Of a DNA stretch of 64,000 bases, positions 863-59,691 are shown one piece after another. A program made the translations under genes and the position numbers. The notes beneath the pieces were generated by a model. It saw only the letters and a list, made by a program, of their open reading frames with translations, did not search any database and had not been told where the DNA came from. Each line of letters opens with the position of its first letter. Position 1 is the first letter of the stretch. Origin of the DNA: Vulcanimicrobiota bacterium (GTDB lineage Bacteria; Vulcanimicrobiota; Vulcanimicrobiia; Vulcanimicrobiales; Vulcanimicrobiaceae); assembly GCA_003140855.1 (NCBI GenBank), contig PLLF01000065.1:1-64000 (forward strand), written 5' to 3'.

Positions 863-1303
863 GTGATCGTCGCCGGTTACGCCAACCGCGATCCGATCAA
901 GTTGAAGATCGCTTCGGTGTACGTTCCGGTTCCGCCCAAAGCCGCGCAAGCCGATCTGGCCACGCGCCGGCGCGAACACGCTTTGGGCGTGGCTGCGCCG
1001 TGGGTGCTGTCGGCGCTCCCGGAGTGTTTGCGGCAAACGTTCGAAGGATTCGGCTCGCACGCGTACGTCAGCTCGCTCCTTCCTTCGGGTTATGCGATCC
1101 AGCCGTCCGGAACGCAGCTGCAGTTCGGCGACTGCAGCGTCGTCGCGCGCGAAAAAGACGTTTTGGTGCGCCGCGGCCAAGATAGGTTTTATGTTCCGGC
1201 TCCCGCACAGCTCTTCAAAAAAGGTTCTTCCATCGCGCTGATGCACGAGGCCGGCGCGCGCGTAACCCTGCGCATCTACGAACCGGCGACCTCCAAGCTG
1301 TAA
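863..1303 (+). CDS. hypothetical protein, possibly membrane-anchored
   Basis: ORF with GTG start; in-frame upstream codons encode a hydrophobic stretch (FYAISAAIVLTIAVIVAGY), so the start is uncertain; ends abutting prfC. Confidence 0.55.
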   Translation: MIVAGYANRDPIKLKIASVYVPVPPKAAQADLATRRREHALGVAAPWVLSALPECLRQTFEGFGSHAYVSSLLPSGYAIQPSGTQLQFGDCSVVAREKDVLVRRGQDRFYVPAPAQLFKKGSSIALMHEAGARVTLRIYEPATSKL

Positions 1304-2958
1304 TGAGCGACCTGGCATGCGAAGTGCGCACGCGGCGCACGTTCGCGATCATTTCACATCCCGACGCCGGCAAGACGACCCTGACGGAAAAATTGCTGCT
1401 CTATGGCGGCGCCATACAAACCGCCGGGCAGGTTTCGGCGCGGCGGGCACAACGCGCCGCCACTAGCGATTGGATGGAGCTCGAAAAGCAGCGCGGAATT
1501 TCGATCACGTCGACGGTTTTGCAGTTCGAGTACGGCGGCTGCACCGTGAATTTGCTCGACACGCCCGGCCACCAAGACTTCGGCGAAGACACCTATCGCA
1601 CGCTGCTGGCCGCCGACAGCGCGGTGATGCTGATCGATGCCGCCAAAGGCGTCGAGCCGCAAACCAAAAAATTGTTCGCGATCTGCCGCGCGCGCCGCGT
1701 TCCGCTCTTGACGTTCATCAACAAGATGGATCGCCCCAGCCGCGACCCGCTCGAACTGCTCGACGAACTCGAGAACGTCTTGGGCATCGGCGTCTTTCCA
1801 ATGAACTGGCCGCTCGGCAACGGCCCGTCCTTCAAGGGCGTCTTCGATCGCGCCACGCAGCGCGTGCACCTGTTCGAACGCGCCACGCACGGATCCAAGC
1901 GCGCGAACGTTCAGGTTACCGGCGTCGACGATCCGCAGATTCGCGAACTGCTCGACGACCGGTCGTACGGCCAGTTCCTCGAGGAGATCGAACTGCTCGA
2001 AGGTGCGGGCGCCGAGTTTGACGCGGGCGCCATGCTGCGCGGCGACGTCTCGCCGGTCTTTTTTGGAAGCGCCGTGACCAATTTCGGAGTGCAGCTTTTC
2101 CTCGACGATTTCATAAAGCTGGCTCCCTCGCCCACGCCACGCCGCGTTGTTGACGGGGGTCAAGAGTGTCATGGTGAGCCTGTCGAACCACGCCCGAGCG
2201 AAGTCGAGGGCCGCATGATCGACCCCACTTCCGATCAATTCACCGGGTTTGTGTTCAAGATCCAAGCGAACATGGATCCGCGCCACCGCGATCGCGTGGC
2301 GTTCGTCCGTATTTGCTCGGGGCGGTTCGAGCGCGACATGACGGTGCGCAACGGCCGCACCGGAAAAGACGTGCGGTTGTCGCGCGCGATGCGGTTGTTT
2401 GCGAGCGAGCGCGAGTCGCTCGAGGTCGCCTACGCCGGCGACGTGGTCGGCTTGGCTAACCCCGGCGTGTTCGCGATAGGAGATTCGTTGAGTGAGGGCA
2501 AGCCGGTTCTGTTCGAGCGATTTCCGGCTTTTGCGCCCGAGCACTTCGCGCAAGTGCGCAGCGTCGACGCGGCGAGCTACAAGTCATTCGGCAAGGGGAT
2601 CGCGCAGTTACGTGAAGAGGGAGCGATTCAAGTGATGTATCCGCTGGGATCGATGCGCACCGAACCGGTCCTGGCAGCCGTGGGCGAGCTGCAGTTCGAG
2701 GTGGTGAAGCATCGCCTCGAATCGGAATACAATGTCAAGACGCTCTTTACGAAGCTGCCGTTTTCCATCGCGCGCCGCGTCCAAGGCGATTCGGAAAGCG
2801 TGCGCGCCGCGCAATTGCCTTCGAGCGCCAAACTTCTGGAGGATTGGGACGGAGCTCCGGTAGCGCTTTTCGAGTCGGATTGGAGCGTGCGTCTGGCCGA
2901 AGAGTGGAATCCCAAGTTGCGTTTTGTGGAGTTCGCAGGTGAAGGCGCCGTCGTTTAG
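1303..2958 (+). CDS. prfC: peptide chain release factor 3
   Basis: GTPase motifs HPDAGKTTLTEKLL, DTPGHQDF, NKMDR and the RF3-characteristic FTGFVFKIQANMDPRHRDRVAF. Confidence 0.95.
   Translation: MSDLACEVRTRRTFAIISHPDAGKTTLTEKLLLYGGAIQTAGQVSARRAQRAATSDWMELEKQRGISITSTVLQFEYGGCTVNLLDTPGHQDFGEDTYRTLLAADSAVMLIDAAKGVEPQTKKLFAICRARRVPLLTFINKMDRPSRDPLELLDELENVLGIGVFPMNWPLGNGPSFKGVFDRATQRVHLFERATHGSKRANVQVTGVDDPQIRELLDDRSYGQFLEEIELLEGAGAEFDAGAMLRGDVSPVFFGSAVTNFGVQLFLDDFIKLAPSPTPRRVVDGGQECHGEPVEPRPSEVEGRMIDPTSDQFTGFVFKIQANMDPRHRDRVAFVRICSGRFERDMTVRNGRTGKDVRLSRAMRLFASERESLEVAYAGDVVGLANPGVFAIGDSLSEGKPVLFERFPAFAPEHFAQVRSVDAASYKSFGKGIAQLREEGAIQVMYPLGSMRTEPVLAAVGELQFEVVKHRLESEYNVKTLFTKLPFSIARRVQGDSESVRAAQLPSSAKLLEDWDGAPVALFESDWSVRLAEEWNPKLRFVEFAGEGAVV
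2167..2212. repeat. REP-like dispersed repeat, copy 1 (inside prfC)
   Basis: TGTCATGGTGAGCCTGTCGAACCACGCCCGAGCGAAGTCGAGGGCC; resembles the copies at 28329 and 49566. Confidence 0.7.
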
Positions 2959-9600: not shown

Positions 9601-9660
9601 CGCTCAGAATGACAAAGTGATTTGTTGCTGAACCTGCCCCTTGCAATGGAGGTTGCATAA

Positions 9661-14815: not shown

Positions 14816-16887
14816 TCGCGCGCGCCGTTGCTTTCTGCGCGGCGGTGGCGTTCGCCGCCGCCATCCCGGGCGCCGCACTCGCCGCGCCCCGGCCCGTCGT
14901 GCCTGAAGATCTTTTTAAGTTTACGTTCATCACCGGCCCGCAGATCTCGCCCGACGGTACGCGCGTCGTCTTCGTCGTGACGCGCCTCAATGGTCCCAAA
15001 GAAACCTACGACAGCAATCTTTATCTCATTCCGGTCTCGGGTGGCGAGCCGAAACGGCTGGCGAACACGGGGCGCGACGGCGGTCCGGTCTGGTCTCCCG
15101 ACAGCCGGACGATCGTCTTCACGCGGGCTCCCGCCAAGAAGGGCACGCGTCCGCAGCTCTACGCGTACGACGTTGTGAGCGGCCGGCTGCGCCAGCTGAC
15201 GCATCTGAAAGCGGGCGCGAGCGGAGCCGCGTTTTCGCACGACGGGAAACGCATCGCCTTCCGGGTTGTTTCAATCGATCCGGCGCCCGCGGCGCGCATC
15301 GATTTCGCCGCCGCCGGCTTTAGACCGAAGAAAGATCAGACCAAGAGCGACGTGCGCGTGATCACGCAGATGCACTTCGAGGGCAACGGCGCGGGTTACA
15401 CCTACGACCGGCACCCGCACATTTGGGTGATGAACGCGGACGGCAGCGGCGCGCGCGCGCTGACGAGCGGAGTTTGGTCCGAAGGCAATCCGCGCTGGTC
15501 GCCCGACGATAAAGCGATTGCGTTCGACTCCTTGCGTTACCATTCGCCCAGCTTGGGCCCCAATGACATCTATACGATTCCGGCCGCGGGCGGAGCGATG
15601 CGCAAACTGATTTCAAACCAGCCTTCGAACGGTTTATTGGATTACGATCGCGGCCGCGAACTCTGGTTCTTCAGCGGCGGCGTGCGCGACCCGGCGGAAT
15701 TCCCCGCGCTCGTGCGCTCGCTTCCGGACGGCTCGCACCGCAAGACCGTGGTGCCCCTAAACACGATCGACTTCGGCGACAGCGTTCTCGCCGACATGGG
15801 CGAGCCGGGCGGATTGTGCGGGCCATATTTCGCTCCGCACGAGAGCTTCGTGTTGACGAACGTGGAAGAACCCGGTTACAGCGCGCTGGTGAAACTGGAT
15901 CCGCGCACGGGCAGCGTGCAACAGCTGACGACCTCGGGCGAAGCTACGGATTGTTCGATGGACGAAAGCGGGCATTACGCGGCTTACACGCTTTCGGATT
16001 TCACGCACCCGCGTGAAGTGTACCTGATCGATCTCACGACGGGTCAAAGCAAACGCCTCACGAGCATGAACGATGCGTTTCTCGGGCAGCTCCAACTTTC
16101 GACCCCGCAACCGTTTTCGATCGTCGACGACGCCGGTTTTACCGTGCGCGCGTGGTTTATGCCGGCCATCGGTTTGAAACCCGGAGAAAAGCGCCCGACC
16201 ATTCTGGATATTCACGGCGGTCCGGAAACGCAGTTCGGCGAGACGTTTTTTCACGAACTGCAAGTTTGGGCGGGTCTCGGATACAACGTCGTGTTTAGCG
16301 ATCCGCGGGGCAGCGTCGGCTTCGGCTACCCTTTTGAAGAGGCGCTGGCCAAGCACTGGGGCGCCGCGATGTGCGACGACGTCCAGCGCGTGATGGACGC
16401 GGCAATCAAACGGCCGGAGGTCGATCCCAACCGGCTCGGCGTCGCGGGCGGAAGTTACGGCGGCTACGCTACGCTGTGGGTCGTCGGCCACACGCGGCGC
16501 TATAAAGCGGCGATCGCGGAGCGCGTCGTCAGCAATTTGGCAACCGAGCAGCTCGCGGCGGATCTCGCTTCGGATAATGCGCTCGGCGGGCGCTACTCTT
16601 GGGGTCTGCCGTGGCAGGCGGGCAATTTGTATCTGCAGCAGTCGCCGATCTCGTCGGTCGCGAACGCGGTCACGCCGCTGCTGATTCTCCATTCAGAGGA
16701 AGATACGCGCACGCCGATCGATCAGACGCTGCAATGGTTCAACGCGGCGAAAATCCTAGGCCGCCCGATTGAGTACGTCGCCGTGCCCGGTGAGAACCAC
16801 GATCTCTCGCGCACGGGTTCGCCCATCCACCGGGTAGAGCGGCTGCACATTCTCGCGCAATGGTTCGCGCGCTACTTAAAACCCTAG
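14812..16887 (+). CDS. S9 family peptidase (prolyl oligopeptidase/acylaminoacyl-peptidase type)
   Basis: TolB-like propeller plus C-terminal GGSYGGYATLW nucleophile, HSEEDTRTP, GENHDLS; GTG 14812 overlaps the egtD stop. Confidence 0.92.
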   Translation: MIARAVAFCAAVAFAAAIPGAALAAPRPVVPEDLFKFTFITGPQISPDGTRVVFVVTRLNGPKETYDSNLYLIPVSGGEPKRLANTGRDGGPVWSPDSRTIVFTRAPAKKGTRPQLYAYDVVSGRLRQLTHLKAGASGAAFSHDGKRIAFRVVSIDPAPAARIDFAAAGFRPKKDQTKSDVRVITQMHFEGNGAGYTYDRHPHIWVMNADGSGARALTSGVWSEGNPRWSPDDKAIAFDSLRYHSPSLGPNDIYTIPAAGGAMRKLISNQPSNGLLDYDRGRELWFFSGGVRDPAEFPALVRSLPDGSHRKTVVPLNTIDFGDSVLADMGEPGGLCGPYFAPHESFVLTNVEEPGYSALVKLDPRTGSVQQLTTSGEATDCSMDESGHYAAYTLSDFTHPREVYLIDLTTGQSKRLTSMNDAFLGQLQLSTPQPFSIVDDAGFTVRAWFMPAIGLKPGEKRPTILDIHGGPETQFGETFFHELQVWAGLGYNVVFSDPRGSVGFGYPFEEALAKHWGAAMCDDVQRVMDAAIKRPEVDPNRLGVAGGSYGGYATLWVVGHTRRYKAAIAERVVSNLATEQLAADLASDNALGGRYSWGLPWQAGNLYLQQSPISSVANAVTPLLILHSEEDTRTPIDQTLQWFNAAKILGRPIEYVAVPGENHDLSRTGSPIHRVERLHILAQWFARYLKP

Positions 16888-28323: not shown

Positions 28324-28605
28324 TTATGTGTCATCCTGAGCTTGTCGAAGGACCCCTGAGCTTGTCGAAGGGCCATCCGGAAGTAGCGTTTTCAGTTCGA
28401 CCGCGTGAACGCGGCCGTCTTTTAGCGCGGGTTTTAACGCGCTGTATACGATTTGGTGCTGTTCGATCAGCGTTTTGCCGGCGAATCCGCCCGACCTAAC
28501 CGTAACGTTAAAGTGATCCATCGTGCCGGTGCGATCGACGATCTCGACGCGCGCGTCGGGCAGCTGGGATCGAATCAGCTCCGTGAGCGAGGCGTTGTCG
28601 ATCAT
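28324..28605 (-). CDS. bolA: BolA family protein
   Basis: HFNVTVRSGGFAGKTLIEQHQIVYSAL..HAVELKTLLP; paired with Grx4. Confidence 0.88.
   Translation of the reverse strand: MIDNASLTELIRSQLPDARVEIVDRTGTMDHFNVTVRSGGFAGKTLIEQHQIVYSALKPALKDGRVHAVELKTLLPDGPSTSSGVLRQAQDDT
28329..28374. repeat. REP-like dispersed repeat, copy 2 (bolA 3' end)
   Basis: TGTCATCCTGAGCTTGTCGAAGGACCCCTGAGCTTGTCGAAGGGCC, with internally duplicated CCTGAGCTTGTCGAAGG unit. Confidence 0.85.
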
Positions 28606-46093: not shown

Positions 46094-46102
46094 TCGCGTA
46101 TT

Positions 46103-46178
46103 ACGCGGGAGCTTGAGTGCTGAGAGGGCAGATTTGCCGACCGCCGTCACCTGATGCGGGTAATGCCGCCGGAGGAAG
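46103..46178 (+). promoter_or_regulatory. TPP riboswitch (THI box)
   Basis: CTGAGAGGGCAGATTTGCCGACC...CACCTGATGCGGGTAATGCCGCCGGAGG just upstream of thiC. Confidence 0.93.
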
Positions 46179-46181
46179 TAG

Positions 46182-49107
<2,926 letters not shown>

Positions 49108-49608
49108 ATGATGAAGCCGTGCGCCGTGTTCTTCGATCGCGATGGTACGCTGATCGAAAACGTCCCTTACAACGGTGACCCTGAAGCCGTGCGTCCGTTC
49201 CCGGGCGCGCGCGAGGCGCTCGATAAACTTCGCGCGCAAAAAATTCCGCTCGGCGTCATTTCAAATCAGAGCGGGATCAGCCGCGGGTTTTTTACGCGCG
49301 AGCAGGCTGAAGCAGTGAACCGGCGCGTGGAGGAGTTGCTCGGGCCGTTCGACGTTTGGCTCTTCTGTCCGCACCAGCCCAATGACGAGTGCGAGTGCCG
49401 TAAACCCAAGCCAAGGTTGATCCTGGATGCGGCGCGCGCGCTCGGCGTCGAGCCTGAGTGCTGCATCATGGTCGGCGACTTGCCGAGCGATCTGGAAGCT
49501 GCGCGCAACGCCGGCGCGCACCCGATGGCGATCGACGTGAACCGATCGCTGGTTCAGGCGATCGATGTCATCCTGACCCTTCGACAAGCTCAGGATGACA
49601 AAGTATGA
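49108..49608 (+). CDS. gmhB: D-glycero-D-manno-heptose-1,7-bisphosphate phosphatase-like HAD phosphatase
   Basis: FFDRDGTLIENVPY, SNQSGISRG, CPHQPNDECECRKPKP zinc loop, MVGDLPSD. Confidence 0.9.
   Translation: MMKPCAVFFDRDGTLIENVPYNGDPEAVRPFPGAREALDKLRAQKIPLGVISNQSGISRGFFTREQAEAVNRRVEELLGPFDVWLFCPHQPNDECECRKPKPRLILDAARALGVEPECCIMVGDLPSDLEAARNAGAHPMAIDVNRSLVQAIDVILTLRQAQDDKV
49566..49600. repeat. REP-like dispersed repeat, copy 3 (gmhB 3' end)
   Basis: TGTCATCCTGACCCTTCGACAAGCTCAGGATGACA; 11-bp perfect arms. Confidence 0.88.
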
Positions 49609-59618: not shown

Positions 59619-59691
59619 TGGAGATGGGGGGACTCGAACCCCCGACCCCTTACATGCGAAGCAAGTGCTCTACCAGCTGAGCTACATCCCC
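59619..59691 (-). tRNA. tRNA-Ala (anticodon CGC), CCA not encoded
   Basis: GGGGATGTAGCTCAGCTGGTAGAGCACTTGCTTCGCATGTAAGGGGTCGGGGGTTCGAGTCCCCCCATCTCCA; full cloverleaf with G3:U70. Confidence 0.95.

Follow-up and report, generated by a model that had tools for sequence, protein, structure and literature searches.

A TGTC-tagged palindromic repeat is read in frame at a linker of release factor 3 and in other conserved genes of an Eremiobacterota genus

The Rickettsia palindromic elements (RPE; Ogata et al. 2000, reviewed in PMC2229807) are repeats of 105-146 bp that lie between genes and also, in frame, inside conserved protein genes, where they are presumably tolerated near-neutrally. The CGTC/TGTC-tagged REPs (Di Nocera et al. 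2013, PMC3733652) are hairpin units that open with an unpaired CGTC or TGTC followed by AT at the base of a stem of 8-9 bp with a loop of 4-5 nt, end in a short unpaired tail (mostly CCA) and form dimers of opposite orientation; no dedicated transposase was found for them, intragenic members occur in repair genes, DNA ligase and tRNA synthetases, and CGTC repeats were recorded in five other phyla, Eremiobacterota (now also called Vulcanimicrobiota) not being among these. Two species of Xanthomonas carry different REPs at about the same site of recB (PMC3733652). The GTAG REPs and REPINs, which go with a RAYT (Y1 transposase) in the genome, are likewise dispersed short palindromes that form inverted pairs (Bertels and Rainey 2011, PMC3116915). 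The element described here, from a genus of Eremiobacterota, is closest to the RPE as a phenomenon and to the TGTC-tagged REPs as a sequence type. Intragenic REPs being already known, what is new is the phylum, the occupancy of the same linkers throughout a genus and the exchange of hairpins inside genes; a literature search in one open-access library returned no prior description of such genus-wide occupancy or of single-hairpin exchange within genes, nothing relevant to the letters of the repeat, and no title or abstract on palindromic repeats of Eremiobacterota.

The window, by which we mean the whole stretch of 64,000 nucleotides that was analysed, holds at 1303-2958 (+) a prfC gene for peptide chain release factor 3 (RF3) of 551 residues. 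Its identity is secured by the NCBIfam prfC equivalogs NF001964 and TIGR00503 (738 bits for a cut-off of 473 and 704 bits for one of 467), by a Pfam RF3_C match above its cut-off and by Foldseek, whose best matches to the AlphaFold model of the frame are RF3 structures; the closest named record in the genome collection, 'Candidatus Eremiobacterota bacterium isolate palsa_1493', has an RF3 that is 87-91% identical. An earlier note on this DNA had proposed that a dispersed repeat of 46 bp lies inside this frame, and so it does, at 2167-2212, reaching 2218 with its usual tail CGCATGA; the frame is open through it.

Motif counts in the window alone cannot tell such a repeat from chance: short pieces of it with 3 mismatches are no commoner there than in shuffles, and a GC-rich coding region might be suspected of producing the resemblance by composition. 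Besides the RF3 copy, the 5' motif TGTCATNNTGAGC has three further copies in the window, at 9602-9614 (-, a TC variant), 28329-28341 (+, CC subtype, adjoining the start of a minus-strand gene) and 49588-49600 (-, CC subtype). At the scale of the 2.28-Mb genome of this soil bacterium (G000), by contrast, there are 63 exact copies of the motif and none of its reversed control, and BLASTN with the 106 bp around the RF3 copy as query yields matches at 37 places with an E-value of about 2e-4 or better, with 89-98% identity over 46-63 bp at unrelated loci and up to 98% over 46 bp. These counts refute chance and compositional bias, to which we assign a negligible probability.

All seven genomes examined in the genus (G000 to G006), which are metagenome assemblies, some of them incomplete, hold the motif in abundance: copy numbers range from 63 to 155, with 78 in G003 at 56% completeness and 77-155 in the near-complete congeners other than G000, where the control gives 0-1. 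In other genera of the same family it is patchy, from 0 to 436 copies, and some genomes from farther afield in the phylum are also rich in it; over the relatives as a whole the count runs from 0 to about 590. Rfam holds no family for the element, its only matches in the window being a TPP riboswitch (46095-46194, +) and a tRNA gene (59619-59691, -), and the plasmid records searched gave no match. Exact GG-type hairpin-1 sequences also turn up in 27 stretches of IMG/VR contigs (L291-L317), which are possibly host sequence or proviruses.

Comparison of the copies reveals a common layout, TGTCAT-hairpin 1-AC-hairpin 2-CGCATGA, mostly 45-80 bp long, with GA/GA mismatches in both stems. In the RF3 copy the whole element spans 2167-2218 (+). 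Hairpin 1 (2167-2190, +) begins with TGTCAT, pairs the arms GGT GAGC and TCGA ACC around a CTG loop and closes with A; hairpin 2 (2192-2211, +) pairs GCCC GAGC with TCGA GGGC around GAAG. The variable pair of the 5' motif is nearly always GG or CC in G000, and its partner bases in hairpin 1 are complementary: among 116 copies from G000 and G003, GG goes with CC 65 times, CC with GG 46 times and CG with CG once, leaving 4 exceptions. The stem pairs of hairpin 2 likewise covary between C-G and G-C. Because the folding energy of the RF3 copy is ordinary against shuffles (z -0.68 as DNA, +0.11 as RNA), the word palindromic, which the earlier note had applied to this copy, holds for the family through covariation and not for the RF3 copy taken alone.

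Seen more broadly, the element behaves as a REP in the wide sense: it is short, dispersed and present in many copies, it forms stem-loops by the covariation just described, and it is mainly intergenic, sites in frame inside genes making up 8 of 62 in G000, 7 of 78 in G003 and 19 of 102 in G002 as counted by a single script, while most of the remaining sites have no one coding frame common to both flanks. With the CGTC/TGTC family it shares a terminal TGTC followed by AT, a test that rests on the BLASTN copies, which start (G)TGTCAT, since the copies from the motif search do so by construction. Shared too are the hairpin units, the intragenic units in tRNA synthetases, DNA ligase and repair genes, and the pairs of opposite orientation, which G003 has at several places with a spacing of about 130-180 bp; such REPIN-like pairs are frequent on its contigs C17, C23, C33, C88, C124 and C130. 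The likeness stops at the stem, which is broken here by GA/GA mismatches, at the loop, which runs from 3 to about 30 nt and in its long forms is mostly a palindrome itself, as seen directly in the copies, and at the tail, where ACG or similar and a second, different hairpin, often ending in a CGCATGA-like tail, stand in place of CCA. Some copies are more complex. At L265 in G003 and at L068 and L004 in G000, partial 5' arms stand in tandem (TGTCATGGTGAGC...TGTCATGGTGAGC), spaced by about 20-30 bp, on the upstream side of a complete element, as though copying had begun again at hairpin 1. On contig C61 of G000 (L013 and L068) a copy is broken at AGT/CGA by a single hairpin unit (AATGTCATCCTGAGC..GTCGAAGGG), giving a nested element.

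As for the spread of the element, the earlier note had called it mobile. Dispersal and an orthologous site that is occupied in one species and empty in the other (near window position 16886 the flanks abut, whereas G003 has an inverted pair of elements within about 270 extra bases) point to mobility, which is thereby inferred rather than demonstrated. Active mobility is unproven because a search for the Y1_Tnp transposase (PF01797) found it in none of the 7 genus genomes, incomplete assemblies included, whereas 5 of 14 control genomes gave a match. The lack of a spreader enzyme among our findings agrees with what Di Nocera et al. reported for CGTC-tagged REPs (PMC3733652) and, together with the missing GTAG tag, sets the element apart from the GTAG REPs and REPINs. 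Since the element departs from the CGTC family in stem/loop geometry and in the tail and no Y1 transposase was found, we do not file it in either of the described REP superfamilies, although it works like them.

Within RF3, codon 289 is the TGT at 2167 and the two hairpins are read in frame as residues 289-303 (CHGEPVEPRPSEVEG; one peptide covering the insert would be VVDGGQECHGEPVEPR). Relative to the solved RF3s (7siq, 3vqt) the protein has an insertion of about 19-20 residues, so that the extra linker of roughly 20 residues noticed earlier is real, although the repeat itself encodes 15 of them and the rest is variable linker. In an AlphaFold model built from 41 sequences (mean pLDDT 82), residues 286-301 fall below 50; they lie between short strands at 280-282 and 304-306, where the G domain (Pfam match 11-275) passes into domain II (from 313). 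The insert is thus predicted to be a disordered loop, and the absence of predicted structure at this passage between domains is likely the reason why it is tolerated, in keeping with the suggestion of a repeat accommodated at a domain linker in the manner of the RPE. The conserved motifs of the protein and its 88-97% identity among congeners suggest that this RF3 still works. The description of RF3 as an essential-class factor fits only loosely, prfC being dispensable in Escherichia coli; a copy is also present in IleS, an enzyme that is generally indispensable.

RF3 is not an isolated case: in G000 the analogy with the RPE covers at least seven further genes. In-frame copies were found there in the genes for IleS, PurL, biotin carboxylase, HutI, NuoG, an Lhr-type helicase, which has two tandem in-frame copies, one of them partial, and in a frame of 529 codons with no NCBIfam hit. 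The AccC locus encodes a biotin carboxylase/biotinyl protein and has its copy at the end of the biotin carboxylase part. The intragenic scan scored the codon usage on either side of each copy, the window having served to train the score; HutI, whose copy is near the N terminus, was added by eye, and its TIGR01224 match spans the insert. One sister species has 18 genes with in-frame copies, and those of G002 include UvrC, a DNA polymerase III alpha-type protein, NAD-dependent DNA ligase, PurL, IleS, AccC and HutI.

To follow these sites through the genus and beyond it, orthologues of RF3, IleS, PurL, AccC, HutI and NuoG were compared. The 5' motif, with at most 2 mismatches, is present in 33 of the 36 gene-species pairs within the genus, a figure that is biased upwards, the six genes having been picked for the copy that G000 carries there, and whose pairs are not independent. 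In 29 of the occupied pairs the element is forward and in 4 it is on the reverse strand. Fifteen of the forward copies are read in phase 0, as C-H-x-E, and 14 in phase 2, as V-M-V-S or V-I-L-S, whereas none of the 29 is in the third phase, which holds an in-frame TGA. The orthologue searches read through stops, and the genus members had no in-frame stop when these were counted; the argument from stop-free phases is confined to these orthologues, because the intragenic scan requires an open frame and its inclusion would be circular. Such a pattern fits selection on the reading frame and bears on the idea that ribosomes skip the hairpin, so that the segment is missing from the mature product. 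Phage T4 gene 60 and the mitochondrial byp elements are instances of ribosome bypass, and hairpins inside genes, such as those seen here, are typical of bypass elements; a bypassed segment, however, would have no need to keep its frame or to avoid the TGA phase, and we consider bypass highly improbable.

The RF3s of other genera join the AP.P..R motif to the FTGFVFKIQA block by a short linker, different in sequence and with no clear element, whereas all six congeners have the element or its remains at this very place. G003, G005, G001, G004 and G002 carry five different versions, and G006 is left with a stub that ends in TGTCATCCTGA and is followed directly by TCGACCCC. The two closest species are the most instructive: their RF3 proteins are 97% identical over residues 1-337 and their DNA is identical from GCCCGAGC to GATCGACCCC, hairpin 2 included, yet hairpin 1 is of the GG type with a 3-nt loop in G000 and of the CC type with a nested hairpin of 30 nt in G003. 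Similarly, G001 and G005 have hairpin 2 and the downstream junction in common and differ in hairpin 1, with a different frame at the 5' end and the same frame at hairpin 2. At other orthologous sites of G000 and G003, classed by eye, hairpin 1 is exchanged and hairpin 2 identical (L014/L285 and L062/L273), both are kept (L026/L257 and L006/L272) or both are changed (L029/L274). As hairpin 2 is identical while hairpin 1 is exchanged between the two closest species, the comparison indicates that the RF3 element is remodelled in place. The Xanthomonas recB case is a precedent for differing elements at one orthologous coding site, but involves one gene in two species, whereas the present comparison takes in six genes and six or seven species, with hairpins exchanged singly; in the RPE comparison, too, the difference is that the same sites are occupied genus-wide by different variants, besides the length of mostly 45-80 bp, the two short hairpins and the other phylum, and the two are likened by description, not by sequence alignment.

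Could each species instead have acquired its copies in events of its own, by repeated insertion into the same few permissive linkers and with no exchange in place? The PurL copies lend themselves to that explanation, four being on the reverse strand (found in G000, G001 and G005) and two forward (G002 and G006), as do the frames of AccC and IleS, which differ among species, and a 3-hydroxyacyl-CoA dehydrogenase whose element is forward in G003 (L254) and reverse in G002 (L376) in apparently the same N-terminal stretch. It nevertheless fails to account for an identical hairpin 2 and junction next to a different hairpin 1, in G000 and G003 as in G001 and G005, which calls for exchange within one inherited element, and an occupancy of 33 in 36, inflated by ascertainment as it is, would be hard to attain in this way; we therefore regard it as possible but doubtful. 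As to relationships, a tree of five of the six proteins groups G001, G004, G005 and G006, which places G000 and G002 outside that group. G001 has two PurL matches (G001:C1 and G001:C2; L188 and L196), 83% and 81% identical to the query and each with a different reverse-strand element; given an estimated contamination of 7% in G001, one of them may be foreign. Exaptation offers a different answer, namely that selection maintains the mRNA hairpin or the extra loop for something it does, such as pausing translation at a domain boundary or tuning RF3. The persistence of the element at the same linkers throughout the genus and the position of some copies at domain boundaries (between G domain and domain II in RF3, at the end of the biotin carboxylase part in AccC) would suit such a role; peptide, frame, strand and length all vary among species, however, the RF3 of G006 and the IleS of G005 retain only remnants, and the RNA of the RF3 copy is of unremarkable stability, all of which makes exaptation distinctly unlikely.

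We consider it very probable that a REP-type element of the TGTC-tagged type, acting like the Rickettsia palindromic elements, has spread in the genus, is selected into permissive loops and keeps turning over there. In this explanation a two-hairpin selfish repeat with a 5' TGTC tag would have multiplied in this Eremiobacterota genus, mostly between genes, and its insertions into genes would survive only in surface loops or domain linkers that tolerate extra residues, provided that they keep the frame and are read in a stop-free phase, selection acting as a filter. The RF3 copy, probably near-neutral for the factor, would be translated into the mature protein as an unstructured loop of about 15 residues that joins the G domain to domain II. 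Once inserted, hairpins would be swapped in place for other subtypes, giving different peptide loops per species at one site; most likely a stalled or cleaved hairpin would prompt break repair or template switching with another of the dispersed copies. Only tentatively do we suggest that a DNA-level process recognising or breaking the hairpins actively exchanges the modules inside genes, in which case loops of core enzymes (RF3, IleS, PurL, DNA ligase, UvrC and others) would be continually rewritten in fresh peptide sequence while selection keeps the frame.

Intragenic selfish repeats have so far come mainly from Rickettsia and some other bacteria, and the present case adds a poorly studied phylum in which, throughout a genus, the same linkers of core genes hold repeat-derived peptides in varied frames, strands and hairpin types. 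Comparison within such a genus can test repeated arrival of intragenic repeats against inheritance with remodelling, and can address how short palindromes with no known transposase spread and change. The occupied sites are, in addition, natural maps of insertion-tolerant loops in RF3, IleS, PurL and other proteins, and they illustrate that selfish-looking DNA can be tolerated and rewritten within important proteins.
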